Shown piece after piece: positions 7,199 to 18,503 of a stretch of 63,248 nucleotides of DNA (the first letter of the stretch is position 1; each line of letters opens with the position of its first letter). The position numbers and the translations under genes were made by a program. Source of the stretch: Polyangiaceae bacterium (GTDB taxonomy: Bacteria > Myxococcota_A > Polyangia > Polyangiales > Polyangiaceae); assembly GCA_029261965.1 (NCBI GenBank), contig JAJDAH010000077.1, forward strand, positions 1 through 63,248, in the 5' to 3' direction. A model generated the notes under the pieces. The model was not told where the DNA came from and ran no database searches. It saw only the letters and a program-made list of their open reading frames with translations.

Positions 7199-8362
7199 GT
7201 GGCGCGCCGCCCCAACCCATTTCACGTTCAGGCGGAAAAGCGCGTCGGGCAGACGCTCGCAAAAAAGTGGCACCTCGATCGCCTGATCGACATCGGTGGC
7301 ATGGCCGCGGTCTACGAAGCCACCCACCGGAACGGCCGTTCGGTAGCCGTCAAAGTGCTGCACAAGATCTACTCCGAGGAGGGCAGCGCCCGCGAGCGCT
7401 TCCTACGCGAAGGGTACGTCGCCAACCAGATCGGCCATCCGGGGGCCGTCGCAGTGCTCGACGACGACGAACTAGACGACGGCACGGTGTTCCTCGTGAT
7501 GGAGCTTCTCGACGGACAATCACTCGAGCAACGACTCGCCGCGCGCAAAACGATGCCGGTACCGGGAGTGCTCTACATTGCGGACCAAGTTCTCGATGTG
7601 CTCGCCGCCGCCCACGACAAAGGCATCGTCCACCGAGACATCAAACCGCCGAACATCTATCTGACGTTGAACGGCGAAGCCAAGCTGCTCGACTTCGGAC
7701 TGGCACGGGTGCGCCAGCGCACGATGGAGGTGTCGAAGACGCGCACGGGCATGGTGATTGGGACTGCGTCCTTCATGCCACCCGAACAAGCACGCGGGCG
7801 GCACGAGATGATCGATCACCGTACGGACATCTGGTCCGTGGCGGCCACCATGTTTCGGGCGCTCACGGGCCGGTATGTGCACGAGGGCACGACGCCAAAC
7901 GAACGCCTCATCAAAGCCATGGCGGAAAAGGCGCCGTCGCTTGGCGAGGTCGCGCCGGACATGCCGGCCGAGGTCGTTGCACTGGTGGACCGGGGGCTGG
8001 CGTTTCAAAAGTCCGACCGCTGGTCTGACGCGCGGACCATGCAGAAAGAGCTTCGCGCCGTGTACGAAGCCGTCGAGCGAGAGCCGATTCCGAGCTTGCG
8101 CCGACTACCGAAGATGGTGCCGTCGAGCGTCGTGCCGACCATCGAAATGTCCGACGAAAATCTCAGCGACATCCATGTGAGCGTCGTCATCGATTCGGGC
8201 GACCCTGGGAGCGTCATCGTCGAATTCGAGAACGACCACGGCGGCGCGGCCAAAGTCGAGCTGAGACGAAAAACTGAAGCCGCGCCGAACGATAGCGACG
8301 AAATCACCGAGGTGAGCGTCGTCGAGCCGATCGACGACGCTCCCCGCACCAAGGGCCGATGA
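7199..8362 (+). CDS. Ser/Thr protein kinase, cytoplasmic
   Basis: A 387-residue Hanks-type kinase starting at GTG. Kinase domain at about residues 26-285: I-G-G-M-A loop, V-A-V-K lysine, H145-R-D147-I-K-P-P-N catalytic loop, D-F-G-L-A, and the sequence P-P-E at the A-P-E position. All catalytic residues are present, so it should be active. There is no membrane helix; the C-terminal 100 residues are acidic and include a short beta-rich stretch. The stop codon overlaps the hemL start (ATGA at 8359-8362), so the two proteins are translationally coupled. This pairing with a heme-biosynthesis enzyme is unusual; the substrate is not known. Confidence 0.92.
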   Translation: MARRPNPFHVQAEKRVGQTLAKKWHLDRLIDIGGMAAVYEATHRNGRSVAVKVLHKIYSEEGSARERFLREGYVANQIGHPGAVAVLDDDELDDGTVFLVMELLDGQSLEQRLAARKTMPVPGVLYIADQVLDVLAAAHDKGIVHRDIKPPNIYLTLNGEAKLLDFGLARVRQRTMEVSKTRTGMVIGTASFMPPEQARGRHEMIDHRTDIWSVAATMFRALTGRYVHEGTTPNERLIKAMAEKAPSLGEVAPDMPAEVVALVDRGLAFQKSDRWSDARTMQKELRAVYEAVEREPIPSLRRLPKMVPSSVVPTIEMSDENLSDIHVSVVIDSGDPGSVIVEFENDHGGAAKVELRRKTEAAPNDSDEITEVSVVEPIDDAPRTKGR

Positions 8363-9633
8363 GCGATAAAACTTCCGCGGACCTTTTCGAAAAAGCCCAG
8401 AGGTTCATGCCTGGCGGCGTCAACAGCCCGGTGCGCGCCTTTCGGGCCGTCGGGGGAACGCCAGTGTTCATCGATAGCGCTTCGGGCTCCAAGGTCGTCG
8501 GCGCCGACGGCAGAGAGTACATCGACTTCGTGGGATCCTGGGGACCGGCGATTCTCGGTCACGGGCATCCGAAGGTGATCGAGGCGGTCGCCGCCGCTGC
8601 GAGCAAAGGTTTGAGCTTCGGGGCGCCCACCGGTCGCGAGGTCGAGTTCGCCGAAGCTATCGTCTCTCGGTATCCGTCGGTGGAAATGCTTCGATGCGTA
8701 TCGAGTGGAACCGAGGCGACCATGAGCGCGCTCAGGGTCGCCCGAGGTGCCACCGGCCGCGACCTCATCGTGAAGTTCGACGGCGCGTACCACGGACACG
8801 CCGATTCGCTACTTGTTCGAGCCGGGAGCGGCGCGGCGACTTTTGGTGAGCCCGATTCGGCCGGTGTCACGACGGCCACCGTGTCCACCACGTTCAGCCT
8901 CCCGTACAACGATGTCGGGAGCCTCGAGGAATTCTTTTCTGCCAACGGCTCTCGGTGTGCGGCTGTCATCGTCGAGCCGGTCGCCGGAAACATGGGGTGC
9001 ATCGCGCCGGAGCCCGGGTTTCTCGAAGCCATCATCTCGCTCTGCGAGCAGCACGGCGCGATCGCCATCTTCGACGAGGTCATGACGGGGTGTCGCCTGT
9101 CACGAGGAGGTGCTCAAGAGCTCTACGGATTGGCGCCGCACCTCACCTGTCTGGGGAAGGTCGTTGGCGGCGGCATGCCCTTGGCGGTCTATGGCGGCCG
9201 GCGCGACCTCATGGAACGGATCGCCCCTCTCGGCCCGATTTACCAAGCGGGGACCCTGAGTGGAAACCCCGTCGCCGTCGCCGCCGGTTTGGCGACGCTC
9301 GCGCTGCTGAGCTCGGAAGTCTACGAGCGGCTCGAAACGAGTGGCAAACGGCTCGAAGAAGGACTGAATCGCGCGCTCCGCGACACGAAGACGACCGGAT
9401 GCGTGCAGCGAGTGGGCTCGATGATCACGTTGTACTTCCACGAGGGTCCCGTTCGCCGCTGGGAGGACTCGAGCGCGTCGAACAAGGAGAAATTCGCCGA
9501 CTGGCACGGAAAGCTGCTCGGGCGAGGGATATACTGGCCTCCATCCGCGTTCGAAGCGGCGTTCATCTCGGCGGCGCATTCAGACGGCGACATCGACCGT
9601 ACCGTCGCGGCTGCGACCGAGGCTCTTCAGTAG
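8359..9633 (+). CDS. hemL: Glutamate-1-semialdehyde 2,1-aminomutase
   Basis: PLP enzyme of the C5 pathway that converts glutamate-1-semialdehyde to 5-aminolevulinate, the first dedicated tetrapyrrole precursor. The 424-residue length is typical. Family motifs are clear: P-G-G-V-N-S-P-V-R near the N-terminus, S-G-T-E-A in the cofactor site, and the Schiff-base lysine K267 in L-G-K-V-V-G-G-G. The start ATG overlaps the stop of the upstream kinase gene. Its 3' end overlaps the end of the convergent hydrolase gene by 7 bases. Confidence 0.97.
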   Translation: MSDKTSADLFEKAQRFMPGGVNSPVRAFRAVGGTPVFIDSASGSKVVGADGREYIDFVGSWGPAILGHGHPKVIEAVAAAASKGLSFGAPTGREVEFAEAIVSRYPSVEMLRCVSSGTEATMSALRVARGATGRDLIVKFDGAYHGHADSLLVRAGSGAATFGEPDSAGVTTATVSTTFSLPYNDVGSLEEFFSANGSRCAAVIVEPVAGNMGCIAPEPGFLEAIISLCEQHGAIAIFDEVMTGCRLSRGGAQELYGLAPHLTCLGKVVGGGMPLAVYGGRRDLMERIAPLGPIYQAGTLSGNPVAVAAGLATLALLSSEVYERLETSGKRLEEGLNRALRDTKTTGCVQRVGSMITLYFHEGPVRRWEDSSASNKEKFADWHGKLLGRGIYWPPSAFEAAFISAAHSDGDIDRTVAAATEALQ

Positions 9634-11849
9634 AGGAGGTACTTCTCGCGCCTCGCCCGGAACGCGAGGAGCTCCGTTTGCCAGGCCGAACGGATCTCGT
9701 CGGCCGACGAGCCCTTCTTCAGCGAATCGAGCACCGCGCGACTAGCCAAGAGAACGTCGACGCGGTCGAGCTGCCACACCGATGGATGAAGGTCCCGAAG
9801 TGCGGAAGCGAGCACCATCGCCAGACGAGCGGGCTCGAACACGGGTCGCTCGGTCACCCTCAACCGGATACCCTCGCAACGCTTGTTGCTGTGGGTGCTC
9901 TCTTTTGGCGTGAACACGGTCTGCTGAACCTCGACGCCCGGGAGCGACGCTTGTTTTACCAGGTCAGTGAGACGGCTGGCGTCGATCCACGGCGCACCCA
10001 CCACTTCGAACGGCATCGCCGTGCCCCGGCCGACCGAAACGTTCGTCGTTTCCAGCGGGCCTATGGCCGGATAGAGCAAGGCCTGGGCAACGCTTCGAAT
10101 GTTCGGGGATGGGTCGACCCATGGCAGGCCCGTCTCGTCGAAATACTGCGCTCGCCGCCAGCCTTCTACTCGCACGACCTCCAAGTTCACCGGGAGTTTG
10201 CGCTCGGCGACGATCATGCGGGCGATCTCTCCGGCGGTCATGCCGTGCCGAAGTGGCAACCGGAAATGATGCACGAAGCTGTCTCGGCCCACATCCACGA
10301 CCGGCCCTTCCGCTCGAAGCGCCGAGATGGGGTTCGGCCGGTCCAAGACGACGAAGCGCGCTCCCGCAGCCGACGCGGCTTCCAACGCTCGATGCATGGT
10401 CGACAGGTACGTATAAAACCGCGTCCCGATGTCCTGAACGTCGAACACCAACGTGTCGATGCCGTTCAGGTGAGCTTTCGATGGCCGATCAACCTTCCCG
10501 TAGAGGCTGACGATCGGCACACCGGTGACGGCGTCGCGCGAATCCGACTGACGACCCGCGCCGCGACCGCCGAGACCGTGTTCAGGCGCGAAGATTCGCA
10601 CGAGCTTCACGTTCGCACTGCGGACGAGGGAGTCGATGGTGCGGCGGCCGTCCCGAGCGCGCCCGGTCGTGTTCGTGATGAGCCCCACACGAGCTCCCGC
10701 CAGCCGCGAATAGCCGTCGCGCGCGAGCACGTCGAGGCCCGACAGCACTGGCACCTTCGGTTGGACCGGTGCCGGCGGGAGCGTCGCCAGTGCTTGAACA
10801 GCCGCGCGGCGAATTCGCGTCGCGAATGGGTGAACGTTTCCCCGGTCGTTCGGATGATGGCGATTGCTCAGAAAAACGACGAAGAGATCGCGCTCGGGGT
10901 CGATCCAGAGCGAAGTGCCCGTAAACCCGCTGTGGCCGTAGGAGGTCGCGGAAAACCCCGAAGCACTCTTGTGAACCAGCTTCCAACCAAGTCCGCGACG
11001 CTCTCCCCGACCCGGCTGCGGCTCGGCGAGTTTTTGCACGGTCTCTCGTCGAAGAACTCGGACTCCGTCGAGCTCTCCCTCGCGGAGCATCATTCGAGAG
11101 AATCGTGCGATGTCGTCCGCCGTGGAGAATAGCCCGGCGTGGCCTGCCTCGCCGTCGAGAGCGAGGGCCCGGGGGTCGTGCACCGTTCCTGGCTGCCAAG
11201 ATCCGTCGAGCTTCCGGGTCGGCGCGGCACGAGCCGCGAGGGCGGCTGGGGGCCGGAAGGTCGTGTCGCTCATCCCGAGCGGCGAAAAGACGTGGTCATG
11301 GGCAAACATCCCGAGCGACGTGCCCGACACCTTCCCCACGAGCTCGCCAAGTACGATGAACCCGAGGTCGCTGTAGACCACCCGGGCCCCCGGCTTGCTC
11401 ACCGGCCTGGAGCGATAGATTCTCGATAGTGCGTTCGAGCGCCCGTCGGCGTAATCGGAAAGCGGGTTCGCCGCGGCCAGGCCGCCGCTGTGCGCGAGCA
11501 GTTGTCGGACCATGATCTCCTGCTTGCCCGCGGCGGCGAACCCGGCAACGTGTTTCGAAACGCGATCGTCGAACGACAGGAGTCTCCGGTCGACCAGTAC
11601 GGCCAAGCTCGTCGTCGTCGCCAGCGGCTTGGTGAGCGACGCGACGTCGAACACCGTGTCTGGCTCCATCGGTTCTACCTTTGGCTCCACCGAGCGGGCA
11701 CCGTAGGCGCGACGGAACAGGGTGCCCGAGGCGCGACCGATGACGACGACGCAGCCGGGCATCGCACCGGACCGAATCCCCTCGGCGGCGGCGAGGTCGA
11801 TGACGTCCTGGTGCTCGACGCGCAGTCTGGCGACCGGACTGGCGCGCAC
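9627..11849 (-). CDS. Fusion of a serine beta-lactamase-fold hydrolase (AmiE-like) and a DUF1343/NamZ-like exo-muramidase
   Basis: A 740-residue two-domain protein counted from the GTG at 11849. The N-terminal domain (about 1-360) has the penicillin-binding/class C beta-lactamase motifs: S71-L-T-K74, Y-S-D, and H-S-G. The C-terminal domain (about 370-740) begins with G-L-I-T-N-T-T-G and carries F-A-P-E-H-G-L and D-V-Q-D-I-G-T-R-F-Y-T-Y, hallmarks of DUF1343, the family of NamZ. In Bacillus subtilis the separate YbbE (AmiE) and YbbC (NamZ) are neighbours in muropeptide recycling; here they are one chain. The frame continues upstream of the GTG to about 12059 and encodes an A-F-F-A-I-G-A-G-C lipoprotein-like signal and a Pro/Ala linker, yet lacks ATG, GTG or TTG. 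The true start may be the CTG at 12059. Probable role: periplasmic cell-wall turnover. Confidence 0.9.
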   Translation of the reverse strand: MRASPVARLRVEHQDVIDLAAAEGIRSGAMPGCVVVIGRASGTLFRRAYGARSVEPKVEPMEPDTVFDVASLTKPLATTTSLAVLVDRRLLSFDDRVSKHVAGFAAAGKQEIMVRQLLAHSGGLAAANPLSDYADGRSNALSRIYRSRPVSKPGARVVYSDLGFIVLGELVGKVSGTSLGMFAHDHVFSPLGMSDTTFRPPAALAARAAPTRKLDGSWQPGTVHDPRALALDGEAGHAGLFSTADDIARFSRMMLREGELDGVRVLRRETVQKLAEPQPGRGERRGLGWKLVHKSASGFSATSYGHSGFTGTSLWIDPERDLFVVFLSNRHHPNDRGNVHPFATRIRRAAVQALATLPPAPVQPKVPVLSGLDVLARDGYSRLAGARVGLITNTTGRARDGRRTIDSLVRSANVKLVRIFAPEHGLGGRGAGRQSDSRDAVTGVPIVSLYGKVDRPSKAHLNGIDTLVFDVQDIGTRFYTYLSTMHRALEAASAAGARFVVLDRPNPISALRAEGPVVDVGRDSFVHHFRLPLRHGMTAGEIARMIVAERKLPVNLEVVRVEGWRRAQYFDETGLPWVDPSPNIRSVAQALLYPAIGPLETTNVSVGRGTAMPFEVVGAPWIDASRLTDLVKQASLPGVEVQQTVFTPKESTHSNKRCEGIRLRVTERPVFEPARLAMVLASALRDLHPSVWQLDRVDVLLASRAVLDSLKKGSSADEIRSAWQTELLAFRARREKYLLY

Positions 11850-12052: not shown

Positions 12053-12325
12053 CTACCAGGAACCGTGGCTGCCGTGGGAGCCGTGACTGCCATGAGAGCC
12101 GTGACTGCCATGAGAGCCATGACTGCCATGAGAGCCATGACTGCCGTGACTGCCATGCGAGCAGTGCTGTGCGGGGAAGGTTCCGTCCGCGTCGCCGGGG
12201 GCGGGTACTTCGTCACAGTTGTCCCGCGCCTTCTCGATGACGGCGTCCTCGGACTTGCTCAGCATGCCTCGCGCACTGCGAGAAAAGGAAGGTAGCTTTC
12301 CAGAACCGTTCTGCTTCGGCGGCAC
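12053..12325 (-). CDS. Small protein with a C-terminal His-Gly-Ser repeat
   Basis: A 90-residue protein (GTG start at 12325; a likelier ATG at 12265 would give 70 residues, as GCGAGG precedes it). A short charged, non-repetitive N-terminal part contains two cysteines (near residues 37 and 55). The last 35 residues are eleven Ser-His-Gly units followed by Ser-Trp. Third-base changes between repeats (CAC/CAT, TCC/AGT/TCT/AGC) indicate selection on the amino acids. The repeat recalls His-Xaa-Ser (HxsA-type) peptides, known next to radical SAM enzymes, but no such enzyme is adjacent. The stop overlaps the apparent upstream start of the AmiE-NamZ fusion, suggesting coupled translation. Metal binding or post-translational modification is inference. 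Confidence 0.65.
   Translation of the reverse strand: MPPKQNGSGKLPSFSRSARGMLSKSEDAVIEKARDNCDEVPAPGDADGTFPAQHCSHGSHGSHGSHGSHGSHGSHGSHGSHGSHGSHGSW
12062..12160 (-). repeat. Eleven tandem 9-bp units encoding Gly-His-Ser
   Basis: The 99 bases consist of exactly eleven 9-bp units, each encoding one Ser-His-Gly step on the minus strand. Units differ mostly at synonymous positions, for example CAC against CAT and AGT against TCT. Confidence 0.85.
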
Positions 12326-12413
12326 GAGGTGAGTCTAACCCATCGGGGGGCCGACTGCGAGCGGATAGGAGTTTTCGCCGGCGGGGCTCAAATGCCGGTG
12401 TACCCCAAAGGCC

Positions 12414-12440: not shown

Positions 12441-14531
12441 TCATTTCTCCCGGCTTTTCGCGAGCAGATTGAAGTTGGCCAGCCGCGAGCAGGTCTCGTG
12501 GACTCGCCGCATCAGCCGGAGTCGGTTCTCGCGCAGAGCCACGTCGTCCGCCATCACGAAGACGTCGTCGAAGTACTGTCCGAGAACCGGCGCGAACCGA
12601 CCGATCGCCGCCAGGGCGTCGGGGTAGTCGACAGCCGAGCCGGCCTGGGCGAGTTGCGACTCGAGCGCCTGCAGGCAGTCGAAGAGCGCTTGCTCGGATG
12701 CATGCACCTCATCTACGAAATCCGCCGGCGCACCTGGCTCTCCCTTCGGCGCCTCCTTCGCAATGTTGGCGGCGCGTTTGAATACTTCGCCGGCGAGTGC
12801 TCGGACTTCGGGTTGGATGGCCGCGAGCGCGACCGCGCGTAGCTTCGCGTCGGTAGGTCTATCGGCGGCCGCCGATAGACACGCATCGACCACGTCTTGG
12901 GGAAGCTCGTCCGCGAGAAGACCGCGGAGGCGTTGATGGCAAAAGCCTCCGACTTTTCGCGACGTCTCGTCCCCGTCGAGCTCGAGCTCGACGCCTTCGA
13001 ACTGCGCGTGAGCATCCAGCACGGCGGCTCGAACCGACAGGTCCCACCCTTTCGCCATGACCGTGCGCAAGACACCGATCGCGGCCCGGCGCAGGGCAAG
13101 CGGATCCGCGGTACCGGTTGGCGTAATGCCTATCGCGAAACAGCCAGCGAGAGTGTCGAGTCGGTCCGCAACCGCGACCAATGCGCCCGCATCGCCGGGT
13201 GCCGTCGCATCGTCAGCGCCGCGGGGCAGATAGTGCTCCGCGGAGATGGCCGCCACTTCGGGGGCGATCCCCTGAGCTCTGGCGTAGGAAGCTCCCATCT
13301 CCCCCTGGAGCTCGGGAAATTCCCCAACCATGAGCGACACGAGATCACATTTGGCTAGCGCTGCACCCCTAACCGCCGTGTCCACGACGGCCTCTCCTAG
13401 TCCGAACCGCGCCCCGAGCTGGCGAACGAGACGCTCGATCCGACGCACCTTGTCACCGATGCTGCCAAGCCGTTTCTGAAAAACGACTTGATCGAGGTCG
13501 GCGCGCCGATCCCCGATGGGCTTGGCGAGATCTTCGTCGTAGAAAAACTTCGCATCCGCCAGCCGTGCCCTCATGACGCGATCGTTGCCGATGCGAATCT
13601 TGTCCGGGTTTCTGGCCGTGTTGACCACCGCCAAATACTTGGGCAGTAACTTCCCGTCTTTCGAACGAACTCCGAAATACCGCTGGTGCCCCTTCGCCAC
13701 CTCGAGAATGACTCGTTCAGGCAGTGCCAAAAACGACTCCTCGAACGTTCCGACGACGACATTGGGCTCCTCGACAAGCGAGCAATTTTCGCCCACGAGG
13801 AAGTCATCCTCGATGAGCTCCCCGCCGGCCTCCGCCGCCGCCGCGCGCAGGCGCTCGTTCATCAGTGCCGCCCGTTCAGCCACGTCCGCGACGACGTGCA
13901 ATGCCCGGAGCTTCTCGACGTAGCCGGCGGGCTCGCTGACCGGGACCGCCGCCGGCGCCAAGAACCGATGGCCTTGGGTCTCCGCTCCAGATGCCACGCC
14001 GGCAAAAGTGAGCTCGACGACGCTTTGACCAAGCAGCGCGAGAATCCACCTCACCGGCCTGCCGAACGCCGTGTCTCCATCGCCCCAACGCATCGACTTC
14101 TTGAACGAAATCGATTCACAGACCCCCCGAAGCAACGTGGGCGCGAGCTCCTCGGCCGGGGAGCCCTTTTCGATGCGTCGCGCGGCGACGTACTCGCCCT
14201 TCTCCGTCTTTTTCGTCGTCAGCTCGTCGACAGCGCAACCAATTTTGCCGGCGAAGCTGAGCGCAGCCTTCGTGGGTTTCCCCTCGGAATCGAAGGCGAC
14301 GCGAACCGGGGGCCCGACCACTTCTTCGTCGAGATCCGGCTGGTGCTCGGCGAGCGCGACCGCGAGCACCGCGATTCGTCGAGGGGTCCCGTACGCAGAG
14401 ATTTGTCCGTGTTCGAGCCGCGCCTCGGCTAGGCGCCGGCGGAGAAGATCCGGTAGCTGCCGAACCGCGGCCTCGACGAAGGACGAGGGGAGCTCCTCCA
14501 CGCCGATTTCCAATAAGAGATCCTGAGCCAT
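12441..14531 (-). CDS. glyS: Glycine--tRNA ligase beta subunit
   Basis: The 696-residue protein is the beta chain of the bacterial (alpha-beta)2 glycyl-tRNA synthetase, which binds tRNA and is needed for charging. The N-terminal L-L-L-E-I-G-V-E-E-L-P and the later Y-F-G-V-R and K-F-F-Y-D-E-D segments are typical. The length matches the family. The start at 14531 was chosen because it begins directly at the conserved N-terminus; the frame continues 16 codons upstream. The alpha-subunit gene glyQ, often directly upstream of glyS, is not present here; the neighbour is a Cys-rich secreted protein. Confidence 0.96.
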   Translation of the reverse strand: MAQDLLLEIGVEELPSSFVEAAVRQLPDLLRRRLAEARLEHGQISAYGTPRRIAVLAVALAEHQPDLDEEVVGPPVRVAFDSEGKPTKAALSFAGKIGCAVDELTTKKTEKGEYVAARRIEKGSPAEELAPTLLRGVCESISFKKSMRWGDGDTAFGRPVRWILALLGQSVVELTFAGVASGAETQGHRFLAPAAVPVSEPAGYVEKLRALHVVADVAERAALMNERLRAAAAEAGGELIEDDFLVGENCSLVEEPNVVVGTFEESFLALPERVILEVAKGHQRYFGVRSKDGKLLPKYLAVVNTARNPDKIRIGNDRVMRARLADAKFFYDEDLAKPIGDRRADLDQVVFQKRLGSIGDKVRRIERLVRQLGARFGLGEAVVDTAVRGAALAKCDLVSLMVGEFPELQGEMGASYARAQGIAPEVAAISAEHYLPRGADDATAPGDAGALVAVADRLDTLAGCFAIGITPTGTADPLALRRAAIGVLRTVMAKGWDLSVRAAVLDAHAQFEGVELELDGDETSRKVGGFCHQRLRGLLADELPQDVVDACLSAAADRPTDAKLRAVALAAIQPEVRALAGEVFKRAANIAKEAPKGEPGAPADFVDEVHASEQALFDCLQALESQLAQAGSAVDYPDALAAIGRFAPVLGQYFDDVFVMADDVALRENRLRLMRRVHETCSRLANFNLLAKSREK

Positions 14532-14631
14532 TTGCGAGAAGAGGGAATTAGCCGGATCACGCCCCGCTGGAAAGCCCACGTCCTCCGGCTGGCCATCAGC
14601 AGGCGCGGAACCCCGACTCGAGCGGCCCGTC

Positions 14632-17600
14632 TCAGTTCGAAACGCGAAGCGTGTAGTCCAGGCAGGTCGTCGAGGAACCGGTGGGCTTCACCTCGATGAA
14701 CACGATTAGCGGGTTCGAGAACTCCGTCGGATCGATGAAAGGCCCCGCCACCGGCGTGGGGTCGATCGATAGCAGGTCGCCGCAAGCGCTCGGGCCTCCG
14801 ACGTAGTTGAAGTCCCAGGTGGTTCGATCGGCAGAGGAGCTGGATCCGGGCTCGGCGCAATTTGCCCCAGCGCCCCCGCAGGTCCCGAAGTGAACCCGCA
14901 TGGCGACCGGCGCTCCACCCAGGATCTGAATCGAGGGGTTGAACGAGCAGACGTTCTGCACCTGAAACTCGACCCGGAACCAGTCTCGATCCGTCGGGGT
15001 CGGCAGCGCATTGCCGAGAACGTCGACCGTACCGTCGACGACGATCGGGCTGCCTCCGTTCACGAAGAATGGGCTCGAGCAGACGTTGGAGTAGGTGTCG
15101 CCGGTGCACTCGCAACCGTTGGCGAAGCCCATATCTTGATCGTACCTGTTCGAATTGCAATTCTGGACGGCGCAGTTGCCGCTGCTGCAGGTCGCCGAGG
15201 ACGCGTTGGGGGGCAGCGGGCTGTTGCAGTCGATGTTGCACATGCCGCAGTGATCCACGTCGGTATTGGTGTTGGTCTCGCAACCGTTCGGGTTGTTGCC
15301 GTCGCAGTTGCCGAACCCACCAGCGATATTGCAGATCGGGTTGCACGCACCGGACTGGCAGTTGTTGCTCGTGGTCCCCGCGGTCTGGCAGACGGTGCCG
15401 CAGACGCCGCAGTTCTGCTCGTCGCTCGTGATGTCGGTCTCGCACCCGGTGTAGGTGTTCGAATCGCAATCACCGAAGCCACCGAGGCACACGGGCGTGC
15501 AAGCGCTGCCGATGCAGAGGTTGCTCACGGTCCCTGCCGTCGAGCAGGCCATGTTGCAGCCGTTGCAGTGGGCTTCGTCGTTCGTCGTGTTCGTCTCGCA
15601 GCCGTTCGGCAGGTTGCCGTCACAGTTGGCGTTGCCGGGGCTGCACGACGGGCTACAAGTACCACTGCTGCACGTGTTCGTGCCGCCGACGTCCTGGCAC
15701 TCATTCATGCACGTGCCGCAGTGCAGGTCGCTCGTGAGCAGGTTGGTCTCGCAACCGTTCGGCCCGATGGCGTCGCAATTGCCGAAGTTCGTATTGCACG
15801 CCGGGACGCACTGACCGTTCACGCACGTATTCGTGCCGTTGACCTGTTGGCACACGATGTTGCAGCCGCCGCAGTTCAACTCGTCGTTGAAAATGTCGGT
15901 CTCGCAGCCGGGGATCCCCGCGTTGCAATCGCCGAAGCCCGGGTCGCAGCCGATTTGGCAGTTGCCGCCAACGCAGCTTTCCGAACCGTTCGGGTTGTTG
16001 CACACGTCGCCGCAATCGCCGCAGTTCGACAGGTCGGTGAAGATGTCCGTCTCGCAGCCGTCGATGGGGTTCGTGCAGTCCTTGAAACCAGGGTTGCACC
16101 CCGGGGTGCAGATGCCGCCGGCGCATGCCCGGGTGCCGTTGGGGTTCGTGCAGGAGGTGCTGCACGAGCCGCAGGTGTCCGGGTCGGTGAAGATGTCCGT
16201 CTCGCAGCCGTCGGTCGGGTCGCTGCAGTCGTCGAACCCGGCGTTGCAGCTGGGAACACAGATACGATTCACGCAGCTGTTGGTGCCGTTGACGTCGAGA
16301 CATTCGGTGCCGCAAGCGCCGCAGTGCAGATCGTCGGACCGGATGTCGGTCTCGCAACCGTTCTCGGGGAACGGATCGCAATCGCCGAACCCGTTCGCGC
16401 AGCTCGGGATGCAGATACCGAGCACGCAAGTATTCGAGCCGTTCACGGCTTGGCACTGGATGCCGCATCCACCGCAATTCATTTCGTCCGAGCCGGTGTC
16501 GGTTTCGCAGCCGTTCGCGCCGTTCCCGTCGCAGCTCGCGAACATGCCACTGCATGCGGGCACGCAGGAGCCGCTGGTGCAGGTGTTGAGTGAGTTGACG
16601 TTGAGGCACTCGGTCGCGCAGTCGCCGCAGTGAAGCTCGTCCGTATTCAGGTTGGTTTCGCAGCCGTTGGCGACGTTGCCGTCGCAGCTATCGAAGCCCA
16701 TGGTGCAACTCGGGTTGCATGTCCCACCGAGGCAGTTCGTCGTGCCGTTCGGGTTGATGCAGCCCAGGTTGCAGGCGCCGCAGTGATTGACGTTGATGAG
16801 CGTATTGGTCTCGCAGCCGTTGACCGGATCCATGTCGCAATTGTCTCGGTCGGGATCGCAGACCGGCTGGCAAGTGCCCCCGGAGCACGACGTCGGCCCG
16901 TTCGGGTTCGTGCACGCGACCCCGCAGGCACCACAATGCGCCAGCGTGGTGTTCGTATTGGTCTCGCACCCGTTGCTCGCATCCATGTCGCAGTTGCCGT
17001 TGCCCGGATTGCAGACGATGCCGCACATCGAGTTCGCGCAGACCGCAGTGCCGTTCGTCGAGTCGCAAACGGTCGCGCATACGCCGCAATTGACCGGGTC
17101 GATGCGCAGATCCACCTCACAACCGTCGCCGGGCGCCCCGTTGCAGTCCGCGAACTGGCCCGAGCACGACGCCACCTGGCAGAAGCCCGTCGTGCAAGCC
17201 CAGGAAACCACGTTTTGCGCGAGCGGGTTGTTCGCACCGCATTCGAGATTGATGTTCGGTACGTTGTCGATCGTACCGTCACAGTCATCATCGAGCGTGT
17301 TGCAAGTCTCGATTTGAGCGCCGGGTTGAACCTGCGGGATGCACGTCTCGACGCCCGCGCCGCAGTTCGTCAGGCCGCCCATGCAGACGCCGCTGAAACC
17401 CGTATCGCAGGGTCGATCGTTGACCACCGCCGCATTGTCGATGGTCTGATCGCAGTCGTTGTCGATCCCGTCGCAAATCTCCGAGCGGGCGAAAACCACC
17501 TGAGCGCAGCTGTTTTGACCCGTCAGGCACGTCGTGAGCCCGTCGGCGCACGGGGTTCCCGGCGGGACGCCCGTCACCGTGCATGGATCACCGCCGCCGA

Positions 17601-18357
17601 ACCCGTTGTCGGGGACGCCGTCACAGTCGTCGTCCAAACCGTTGCAGGCTTCGGGCTGCGACGTGATGTTCTGCTCACATTCGAGAGTTCCGGCGTTGCA
17701 GGCGGTGGTGCCCGCCGCGCAGATTCCGAGGAGCCCGGTGGGGCACGCGTCTCCCGCCTCGGGGTCGCCCTCGTCGACGCTTCCGTTGCAGTTGTTGTCG
17801 AGCCCGTCGCAAATCTCCGGGGACGGCTGAGTAATCTGCTCGCAGGTCAAAAACCCGCTCGAGCACATGGTCAATCCGTCCGAGCAAACGCCCTGGACGG
17901 AAGGAACTGTGCACGTTTCACCGCCTCCCGGATCGCCTTCGTCAATCGCTCCGTTGCAGTTGTTGTCGAGCCCGTCGCACACCTCGGGCTGCGCACAGGG
18001 ATCGCCAGAATCCGCGGCATCCCCGTCGGCGGCATCGCCCGCGTCGCCTGCGTCCACGGGCACACCTGCTCCGCCTCCGCCACCACCGGTTCCGGCGCCA
18101 CCGCCCGTCCCGACGATCCCGCCGGTTCCTGCGGCACCGCCACCCACTCCACCGGTGCCGCCGCCCGTTCCGCCGATTCCACCCGATCCGTTGCTCGAAT
18201 CGGGCGACGCGTCTGCCACCGCACCGCCAGTTCCACCGGCGCTCGCGTTGTCAGCGGAAGTTCCGCCCGCACAACCGGTGGAGGAGGCACTTCCCAGAGC
18301 GATGACGGCCAACGCGCCGACTGAAACACTTGCAACCGCGCGAAAAATTTTCTTCAT
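14632..18357 (-). CDS. Large secreted Cys-rich lipoprotein with MopE-like metal-binding motifs
   Basis: A 1241-residue protein with a signal peptide ending in S-S-T-G-C (probable lipobox), then a Gly/Thr/Ala-rich linker of about 80 residues. Next are five copies of the D-G-L-D-N-N-C-N-G type motif known from the putative metal-binding region of MopE. Then come about thirteen repeats of around 60 residues, each with the core N-G-C-E-T-D, H-C-G-x-C and C-x-x-G-x-C-x-P-x-C. The last 180 residues are a non-repetitive beta-rich domain. ATG at 18357 is preferred to an upstream TTG at 18378 because it starts at a normal signal peptide (M-K-K-I-F-R-A). The protein is probably an extended outer-membrane surface structure held by disulfides; its function is unknown. 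The start of glyS lies 100 bases beyond its stop. Confidence 0.85.
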   Translation of the reverse strand: MKKIFRAVASVSVGALAVIALGSASSTGCAGGTSADNASAGGTGGAVADASPDSSNGSGGIGGTGGGTGGVGGGAAGTGGIVGTGGGAGTGGGGGGAGVPVDAGDAGDAADGDAADSGDPCAQPEVCDGLDNNCNGAIDEGDPGGGETCTVPSVQGVCSDGLTMCSSGFLTCEQITQPSPEICDGLDNNCNGSVDEGDPEAGDACPTGLLGICAAGTTACNAGTLECEQNITSQPEACNGLDDDCDGVPDNGFGGGDPCTVTGVPPGTPCADGLTTCLTGQNSCAQVVFARSEICDGIDNDCDQTIDNAAVVNDRPCDTGFSGVCMGGLTNCGAGVETCIPQVQPGAQIETCNTLDDDCDGTIDNVPNINLECGANNPLAQNVVSWACTTGFCQVASCSGQFADCNGAPGDGCEVDLRIDPVNCGVCATVCDSTNGTAVCANSMCGIVCNPGNGNCDMDASNGCETNTNTTLAHCGACGVACTNPNGPTSCSGGTCQPVCDPDRDNCDMDPVNGCETNTLINVNHCGACNLGCINPNGTTNCLGGTCNPSCTMGFDSCDGNVANGCETNLNTDELHCGDCATECLNVNSLNTCTSGSCVPACSGMFASCDGNGANGCETDTGSDEMNCGGCGIQCQAVNGSNTCVLGICIPSCANGFGDCDPFPENGCETDIRSDDLHCGACGTECLDVNGTNSCVNRICVPSCNAGFDDCSDPTDGCETDIFTDPDTCGSCSTSCTNPNGTRACAGGICTPGCNPGFKDCTNPIDGCETDIFTDLSNCGDCGDVCNNPNGSESCVGGNCQIGCDPGFGDCNAGIPGCETDIFNDELNCGGCNIVCQQVNGTNTCVNGQCVPACNTNFGNCDAIGPNGCETNLLTSDLHCGTCMNECQDVGGTNTCSSGTCSPSCSPGNANCDGNLPNGCETNTTNDEAHCNGCNMACSTAGTVSNLCIGSACTPVCLGGFGDCDSNTYTGCETDITSDEQNCGVCGTVCQTAGTTSNNCQSGACNPICNIAGGFGNCDGNNPNGCETNTNTDVDHCGMCNIDCNSPLPPNASSATCSSGNCAVQNCNSNRYDQDMGFANGCECTGDTYSNVCSSPFFVNGGSPIVVDGTVDVLGNALPTPTDRDWFRVEFQVQNVCSFNPSIQILGGAPVAMRVHFGTCGGAGANCAEPGSSSSADRTTWDFNYVGGPSACGDLLSIDPTPVAGPFIDPTEFSNPLIVFIEVKPTGSSTTCLDYTLRVSN

Positions 18358-18503
18358 GGTGACCGTGAGCTTCCGCAAGCATTCAAAGAGGGGCTGGTCG
18401 CCAGTTTACCCCATCGCGGTCGCGGGAGACATGATTGGCGACGACCAGTTGCAGTCACACCGCAACTTGCAGACTGGGCAGCCGGGCCCCAAGCTTCGAA
18501 TGA

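Follow-up and report, generated by a model that had tools for sequence, protein, structure and literature searches.

A His-Xaa-Ser repeat precursor gene at a glyS site in a Polyangiaceae bacterium, with a proposed dispersed maturation pathway

The hxsA4 gene, its repeat and its family

The window, that is, the whole stretch of 63,248 nucleotides analysed, carries the small gene hxsA4 at a site marked out by glyS and a hemL-like gene (Table 1). Translation shows that Cys55 is followed by exactly eleven Ser-His-Gly units and then by Ser-Trp-stop, just as a first-pass annotation, made from the sequence alone, had read this gene; we add that it lies on the minus strand. The border between leader and core is our own assignment. 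Histidine accounts for 12 of the 90 residues, and the leader looks polar by eye, having no signal-like hydrophobic stretch.

Table 1. Features of the hxsA4 site and their coordinates in the window
Feature	Position	Strand	Basis and remarks
hxsA4, 90-aa His-Xaa-Ser repeat precursor peptide	12053..12325	-	ORF call; GTG start, TAG stop
Core, residues 56-90, (SHG)11-SW	12056..12160	-	Translation; W90 invariant in alignment A1
Leader, residues 1-55; motifs LPSF and GML, QHC junction	12161..12325	-	Alignment A1, 25 relatives
-10-like hexamer TAGACT, putative promoter element for a leaderless transcript of hxsA4	12332..12337	-	Ends 6 bases before GTG
glyS, glycine-tRNA ligase beta subunit; adjoins hxsA4 upstream, serves as synteny anchor, outside the pathway	12441..14579	-	TIGR00211, 712 bits
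hemL-like aminotransferase (named by eye); convergent far-side synteny anchor, outside the pathway	8359..9633	+	Homologue in 8 of 11 glyS-type loci

Could the repeat be a product of chance, or of reading the wrong frame? Both were rejected: the longest Ser-His-Gly run in 20,000 shuffles of the 90 residues was two units, the differences between units are silent, and the start and the -10-like element are conserved (see below). All differences between the 11 units are synonymous (six AGY and five TCN serine codons, CAT or CAC for histidine, GGC or GGT for glycine), and the minimum tree of the units requires eight base changes with zero net residue change. Only 5-7 of 27 single-base changes possible in a unit are silent; at 7/27 per change the chance that all eight would be silent is about 2e-5, a crude figure (AGY to TCN takes two steps). 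This unit-by-unit codon comparison bears out the synonymous drift that had been remarked on earlier. As DNA, the array (called at 12063-12149) fits an 18-base unit best, with 92% matches vs 74% for 9 bases, because serine is encoded more or less in turn by AGT and TCT. Near-equal use of AGY and TCN is also seen in many relatives, so that the DNA unit (18 bases) is twice as long as the protein-level unit (9 bases); the alternation may slow slippage or may merely reflect 18-base duplications. Repeat number among relatives ranges from 6, the floor of the filter used, to at least 25 units.

The peptide matches the NCBIfam model for HxsA4 (NF038313) over the full length of the profile (1-93) with 98.8 bits against a cut-off of 55, and consists of a leader and, C-terminal to it, an (SHG)n-S-W repeat. 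The suspected likeness to His-Xaa-Ser peptides was therefore correct, and the peptide can be classed as a His-Xaa-Ser RiPP-type precursor. The related models all score under their cut-offs (HxsA2, 31.1 vs 48; HxsA3, 19.9 vs 65; HxsA, 18.4 vs 121.65). A collagen-like protein (PF01391) was considered and rejected: the match, 24.5 bits against a Pfam gathering cut-off of 27.2, was taken to reflect a composition with glycine at every third position.

In an alignment of 25 relatives (A1), P12, Q53, H54 and W90 are invariant and F14, L22, A33 and C55 occur in 90% or more of the sequences. Do such leaders occur without the repeat? The first-pass annotation had named homologues of this kind as contrary evidence, and none was found: a leader-only profile run over the ORFs of the loci examined gave 96 matches, 93 of them with the repeat and three cut off by contig ends, in a count that takes overlapping loci repeatedly and draws mostly on loci found through searches including the repeat or Hxs enzymes. 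An apparent repeat-less leader homologue in G016 (contig C507) was discarded; its ORF stops at the end of its contig.

Some relatives depart from the common pattern. Loci L117, L122 and L123 have Phe, Trp or Ala in place of the Cys that precedes the repeat. Divergent HxsA4 proteins at L121 (7670-8056, plus strand) and L123 (7786-8088, plus strand) end in HGQW, not HGSW; their flanking genes encode an additional radical SAM protein and an HxsB from a distinct branch. At L177 (8001-8153), on a contig labelled Acidobacteria gp6, there is an HxsA4-like core with 81% identity in its best segment (query residues 36-89).

The glyS site and the start of hxsA4

Among 44 HxsA4-bearing loci read, 11 have glyS upstream of hxsA4 on the same strand (here called glyS-type loci); glyS is the direct neighbour in six and lies 3-7 kb off, with other genes intervening, in five. 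Two further loci, L157 and L158, fell to an ORF-length filter in the hxsA4 scan, and their HxsA4 was read separately; no glyS match was found in the stretches of them examined. Two large genes complete the picture of the site in the window. At 9627-11849 (minus strand) a 740-aa ORF combines a beta-lactamase-family domain (residues 22-341) with both NamZ exo-muramidase parts (388-740). Directly upstream of glyS, at 14632-18378 (minus strand), a 1248-aa Cys-rich protein carries MopE-type putative metal-binding motifs. A special link of hxsA4 with this MopE-type gene was rejected, given that a relative in an hxs locus elsewhere in the genome (contig C420) scores about the same (42.3 vs 40.9 bits) when the MopE of an intact locus serves as query.

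The start of hxsA4 is GTG in all 11 glyS-type loci, the window included, followed by P-P-K in ten and by S-Q-K in one, and this conservation supports the start call. A TANNNT hexamer ends 6-7 bases before the GTG in 10 of the 11 loci, as against 2 of 28 other HxsA4 starts (hexamers at 4-8 bases counted), whereas a Shine-Dalgarno-like sequence is found in none of the 11 vs 14 of the 28 (Fisher p = 1e-6 for the hexamer and 0.003 for the Shine-Dalgarno, the clade relatives not being independent). The -10-like pattern was first noticed in the alignment and counted afterwards. The 28 other starts were chosen by rule, so that some are wrong, and three have the hexamer 9 bases away; L121, L130, L170 and L173, in which the leader motif was unrecognised, were dropped from the count. 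Shuffles of the glyS-type loci that keep only base composition gave a mean of 0.32 hexamers and a maximum of 3 (2000 shuffles), and a hexamer at 4-8 bases precedes 7.3% of 770 called genes of the fetched loci. No -35 element is evident by eye upstream of hxsA4. A conserved -10-like hexamer combined with the lack of a Shine-Dalgarno-like sequence suggests a leaderless transcript: the hexamer would act as a promoter, and hxsA4 would have a message of its own, tied neither to glyS nor to the hydrolase gene.

Hxs genes in the genome and across the class

It had been noted earlier that no maturation enzyme adjoins hxsA4. This holds for the locus and is incomplete for the organism, since contigs C110, C69 and C420 of the same genome encode HxsB, HxsC4 and HxsD. 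The source genome (G000; 9.6 Mb, 480 contigs, 96.4% complete) has one HxsA4, one HxsB over cut-off (G000:C110:9222-10622; 557 bits vs 370), one HxsC4 over cut-off (NF038332; contig C69, 594 bits vs 500) and one HxsD (G000:C420:37689-37949; 55.7 bits vs 50), with an HxsD-like protein (71.1 bits vs 41) beside hxsD. The precursor and enzyme genes are thus spread over four contigs, and the precursor gene is not clustered with maturase genes. Canonical HxsC (TIGR03977) stays below cut-off in this genome, at best 94.9 bits vs 267.9. Does hxsB have another substrate close by? Neither a second precursor among called genes of at least 50 aa nor a His-x-Ser repeat ORF of at least 40 aa was found on C110:1-20000.

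We surveyed 317 genomes of the class, scoring only the best first-look candidates, so that family counts are lower bounds. The cut-off is exceeded by HxsA4 in 92 genomes, by HxsB in 102 and by HxsC4 in 70. HxsA4 and HxsB occur together in 87 genomes, HxsA4 only in 5, HxsB only in 15 and neither in 210 (Fisher p = 3e-55, for related and hence non-independent genomes); common descent inflates this association. In 65 genomes HxsA4 is accompanied by HxsC4, and five genomes have HxsC4 without an HxsA4 over cut-off. Since 27 of the 92 HxsA4 genomes, including the close relative G032, have no HxsC4 over cut-off, HxsC4 may be dispensable.

The exceptions are of several kinds. Five genomes have HxsA4 without HxsB over cut-off (G035, G044, G055, G171 and G275), and in G035 HxsB is present in two pieces at contig ends. 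Among the 15 genomes with HxsB only, G018, G019 and G041 have canonical HxsC, and six (G039, G054, G063, G178, G205 and G251) have an HxsA4 match below cut-off; the examination of this group left out G099, G160, G272, G290 and G306, and covered G098 within 6 kb of hxsB.

Where both genes are present, they lie within 10 kb of each other in 49 of the 87 genomes, on different contigs in 31, and in seven on a single contig at a distance above 10 kb, up to 396 kb. (The linkage script gave 48 linked and 32 on different contigs; we moved G056, in which the hxsB contig ends inside the hxsA4 leader directly after hxsB, to the linked group.) Others of the 31 may be contig breaks of the same kind. Contigs end inside or just before the SHG repeat at L150 (10467-10847), L204 (1964-2119) and L206 (1287-1376); the repeat breaks assemblies, and hxsA4 can therefore look unlinked or truncated. 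The seven single-contig cases show that assembly alone does not account for the split. In the window's clade it rests on contigs running well past the genes, as in G027, G249 and G250, the last of which has hxsA4 and hxsB on one contig 208 kb apart.

Clustered loci keep a common plan. The gene order hxsD-hxsB-hxsA4 is found in 15 loci read, some with intervening genes. The clusters of G013, G015 and G031 extend further: radical SAM genes follow, together with a clpB-like gene and one whose product has, by eye, a Tat-like N-terminus. The clpB-linked stretch persists in G000, G027, G032 and G020 with hxsD and radical SAM genes and without hxsB and hxsA4; in these four genomes hxsA4 sits downstream of glyS. 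The hxsB gene is near pgpA in G000, G027, G020, G245 and G255, and as a piece in G035; no pgpA match was found for other clade members in the stretches examined. At L093, L099, L100 and L102, HxsA4 genes away from hxsB adjoin a match to the Tat-like-N-terminus protein of the hxs clusters; the copies of this protein that were scanned had no Pfam or NCBIfam match.

A tree was built from 45 fetched HxsB rows, out of the 102 HxsB genomes, with support from the quick SH-aLRT method and no bootstrap. The G000 HxsB falls in a clade of 11 rows (SH-aLRT 95), of which 10 come from glyS-type hxsA4 genomes and the eleventh is a second HxsB of G016. Ten of the 11 glyS-type genomes accordingly have a full HxsB of this one clade, the other being G035 with its HxsB in two pieces. 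The label 'unlinked' changes 10 times on the tree, at least eight of them on starred branches, a count slightly too high because G056 was mislabelled unlinked; separation or rejoining therefore happened more than once.

An AlphaFold2 model of the G000 HxsB (mean pLDDT 86.1) aligns with 5wgg over 404 residues (residues 26-484; Z 35.7, rmsd 3.6, 23% identity). Among Foldseek's best 1000 chains, 5wgg and 5why are best by Z (35.7 and 35.2, tied), with 4k36, an anaerobic sulfatase-maturating enzyme, close behind (Z 34.4, residues 99-500 of HxsB); 5wgg also ranks first by Foldseek and in a profile search of the PDB. In the model, the N-terminal part of HxsB (residues 28-72) consists of three strands and two helices and falls within the 5wgg alignment. 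This is the arrangement expected of a peptide-binding RRE domain, and the predicted fold supports, without proving, binding of the leader there.

Proposed pathway, alternatives and known systems

We propose that the HxsA4 leader would dock on the N-terminal domain of HxsB, a radical SAM/SPASM enzyme encoded on another contig, and that HxsB, probably with HxsC4 and HxsD, would modify the Ser-His-Gly repeats one after another. The ancestral state would be a cluster of hxs genes; in the window's clade hxsA4 would have moved to the site downstream of glyS, there to be expressed as a leaderless mRNA under a promoter of its own, its peptide being matured in trans. We infer that HxsB acts on the HxsA4 peptide of this genome and that clustering came first, as we infer the chemistry and function of the product; we know of no modified HxsA4-type peptide. 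Taken as a whole (a RiPP-type precursor, maturation in trans by HxsB with HxsC4 and HxsD, a move to the glyS site and a leaderless promoter), this proposal is in our judgement likely.

On balance we lean, with less assurance, towards a broader reading: a dispersed RiPP-type pathway, its parts at separate sites yet kept together across genera, whose precursor gene left the operon more than once and, in the window's clade, exchanged a Shine-Dalgarno-led position for a promoter from which the mRNA begins at the start codon. Such an exchange would allow peptide dose to be controlled independently of the enzymes.

Might the peptide instead be an unmodified His-rich metal-binding or storage peptide, whose repeats bind Cu, Ni or Zn and to which the Hxs enzymes are irrelevant? 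Its histidine content would suit such a role, as would the proteins of MopE type (PF11617, putative metal-binding) found in the G013 hxs locus and upstream of glyS in the window, and the MopE-similar proteins in further hxs loci. The presence of MopE near hxs genes says little, however, because related sequences occur on four contigs of G000; moreover, conservation is also seen outside the repeat, in the leader, and HxsA4 is largely confined to HxsB genomes (87 of 92). Metal binding by the HxsA4 product is possible, but we regard this account of the present copy as improbable. Still less probable, indeed very unlikely, is that the gene is decaying, an orphan copy of the precursor left behind at the glyS site and no longer matured. 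The missing neighbour maturase and the widely varying repeat number would fit decay; set against them are the facts that this is the sole HxsA4 of the genome, that its unit differences are silent, that frame, GTG start and -10-like element are kept across the clade, and that the glyS-type genomes retain their HxsB. Functional coupling to the beta-lactamase/NamZ cell-wall hydrolase, which the first-pass annotation had favoured and to which the shared strand and a gap of 203 bases lend some appeal, we hold to be scarcely credible, because the hydrolase gene is at the site in only one of the ten glyS-type loci with that side available, the window itself (the eleventh, L161, ends inside the gene), and hxsA4 has an apparent promoter of its own.

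The proposed pathway with maturation in trans has a practical side. Precursor peptides are usually sought beside maturases, and by that rule hxsA4 here would be classed as an orphan; since up to 38 of the 87 genomes with both genes have them unlinked, searches confined to gene neighbourhoods can overlook a considerable part of the HxsA4 family. The genome also offers a test-ready system, in which precursor, HxsB, HxsC4 and HxsD are each present once over cut-off.

How does this compare with known systems? The HxsA4 family is already catalogued by NCBI, and the window's peptide conforms to NF038313 throughout; its gene is set apart by a glyS/hemL site with a promoter-like element, away from hxsB, hxsC4 and hxsD. 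A dispersed, co-retained hxs arrangement with a proposed leaderless promoter is apparently undescribed, in that we have not seen it described. With the canonical His-Xaa-Ser system (HxsA TIGR03979, HxsB TIGR03978, HxsC TIGR03977, HxsD TIGR03976) G000 shares HxsB and HxsD over cut-offs, but HxsA and HxsC are under cut-off and HxsC4 is present instead. Its HxsB is 36-38% identical to four HxsB proteins of canonical-HxsC genomes, which form a separate branch. The thioether-forming radical SAM maturase of 5wgg/5why, which we take to be CteB, aligns with the HxsB model over nearly its whole chain, N-terminal domain included. CteB links a Cys to a second residue; as the repeat of the HxsA4 core is free of Cys, the bond formed must differ.

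In open-licence PubMed Central papers, HxsA4, HxsC4 and their model numbers were not found, no title among the matches listed concerned HxsA4 chemistry, and a search for the SHG repeat itself gave only unrelated papers. Hxs terms do occur, as word matches, in PMC8446631 and PMC6537148. A further parallel is a Mucilaginibacter cluster: as far as the accessible part of PMC9062424 goes, HxsB is treated there as an annotated enzyme, and the precursor, like HxsA4, has a His-Xaa-Ser motif; it lies beside radical SAM enzymes.
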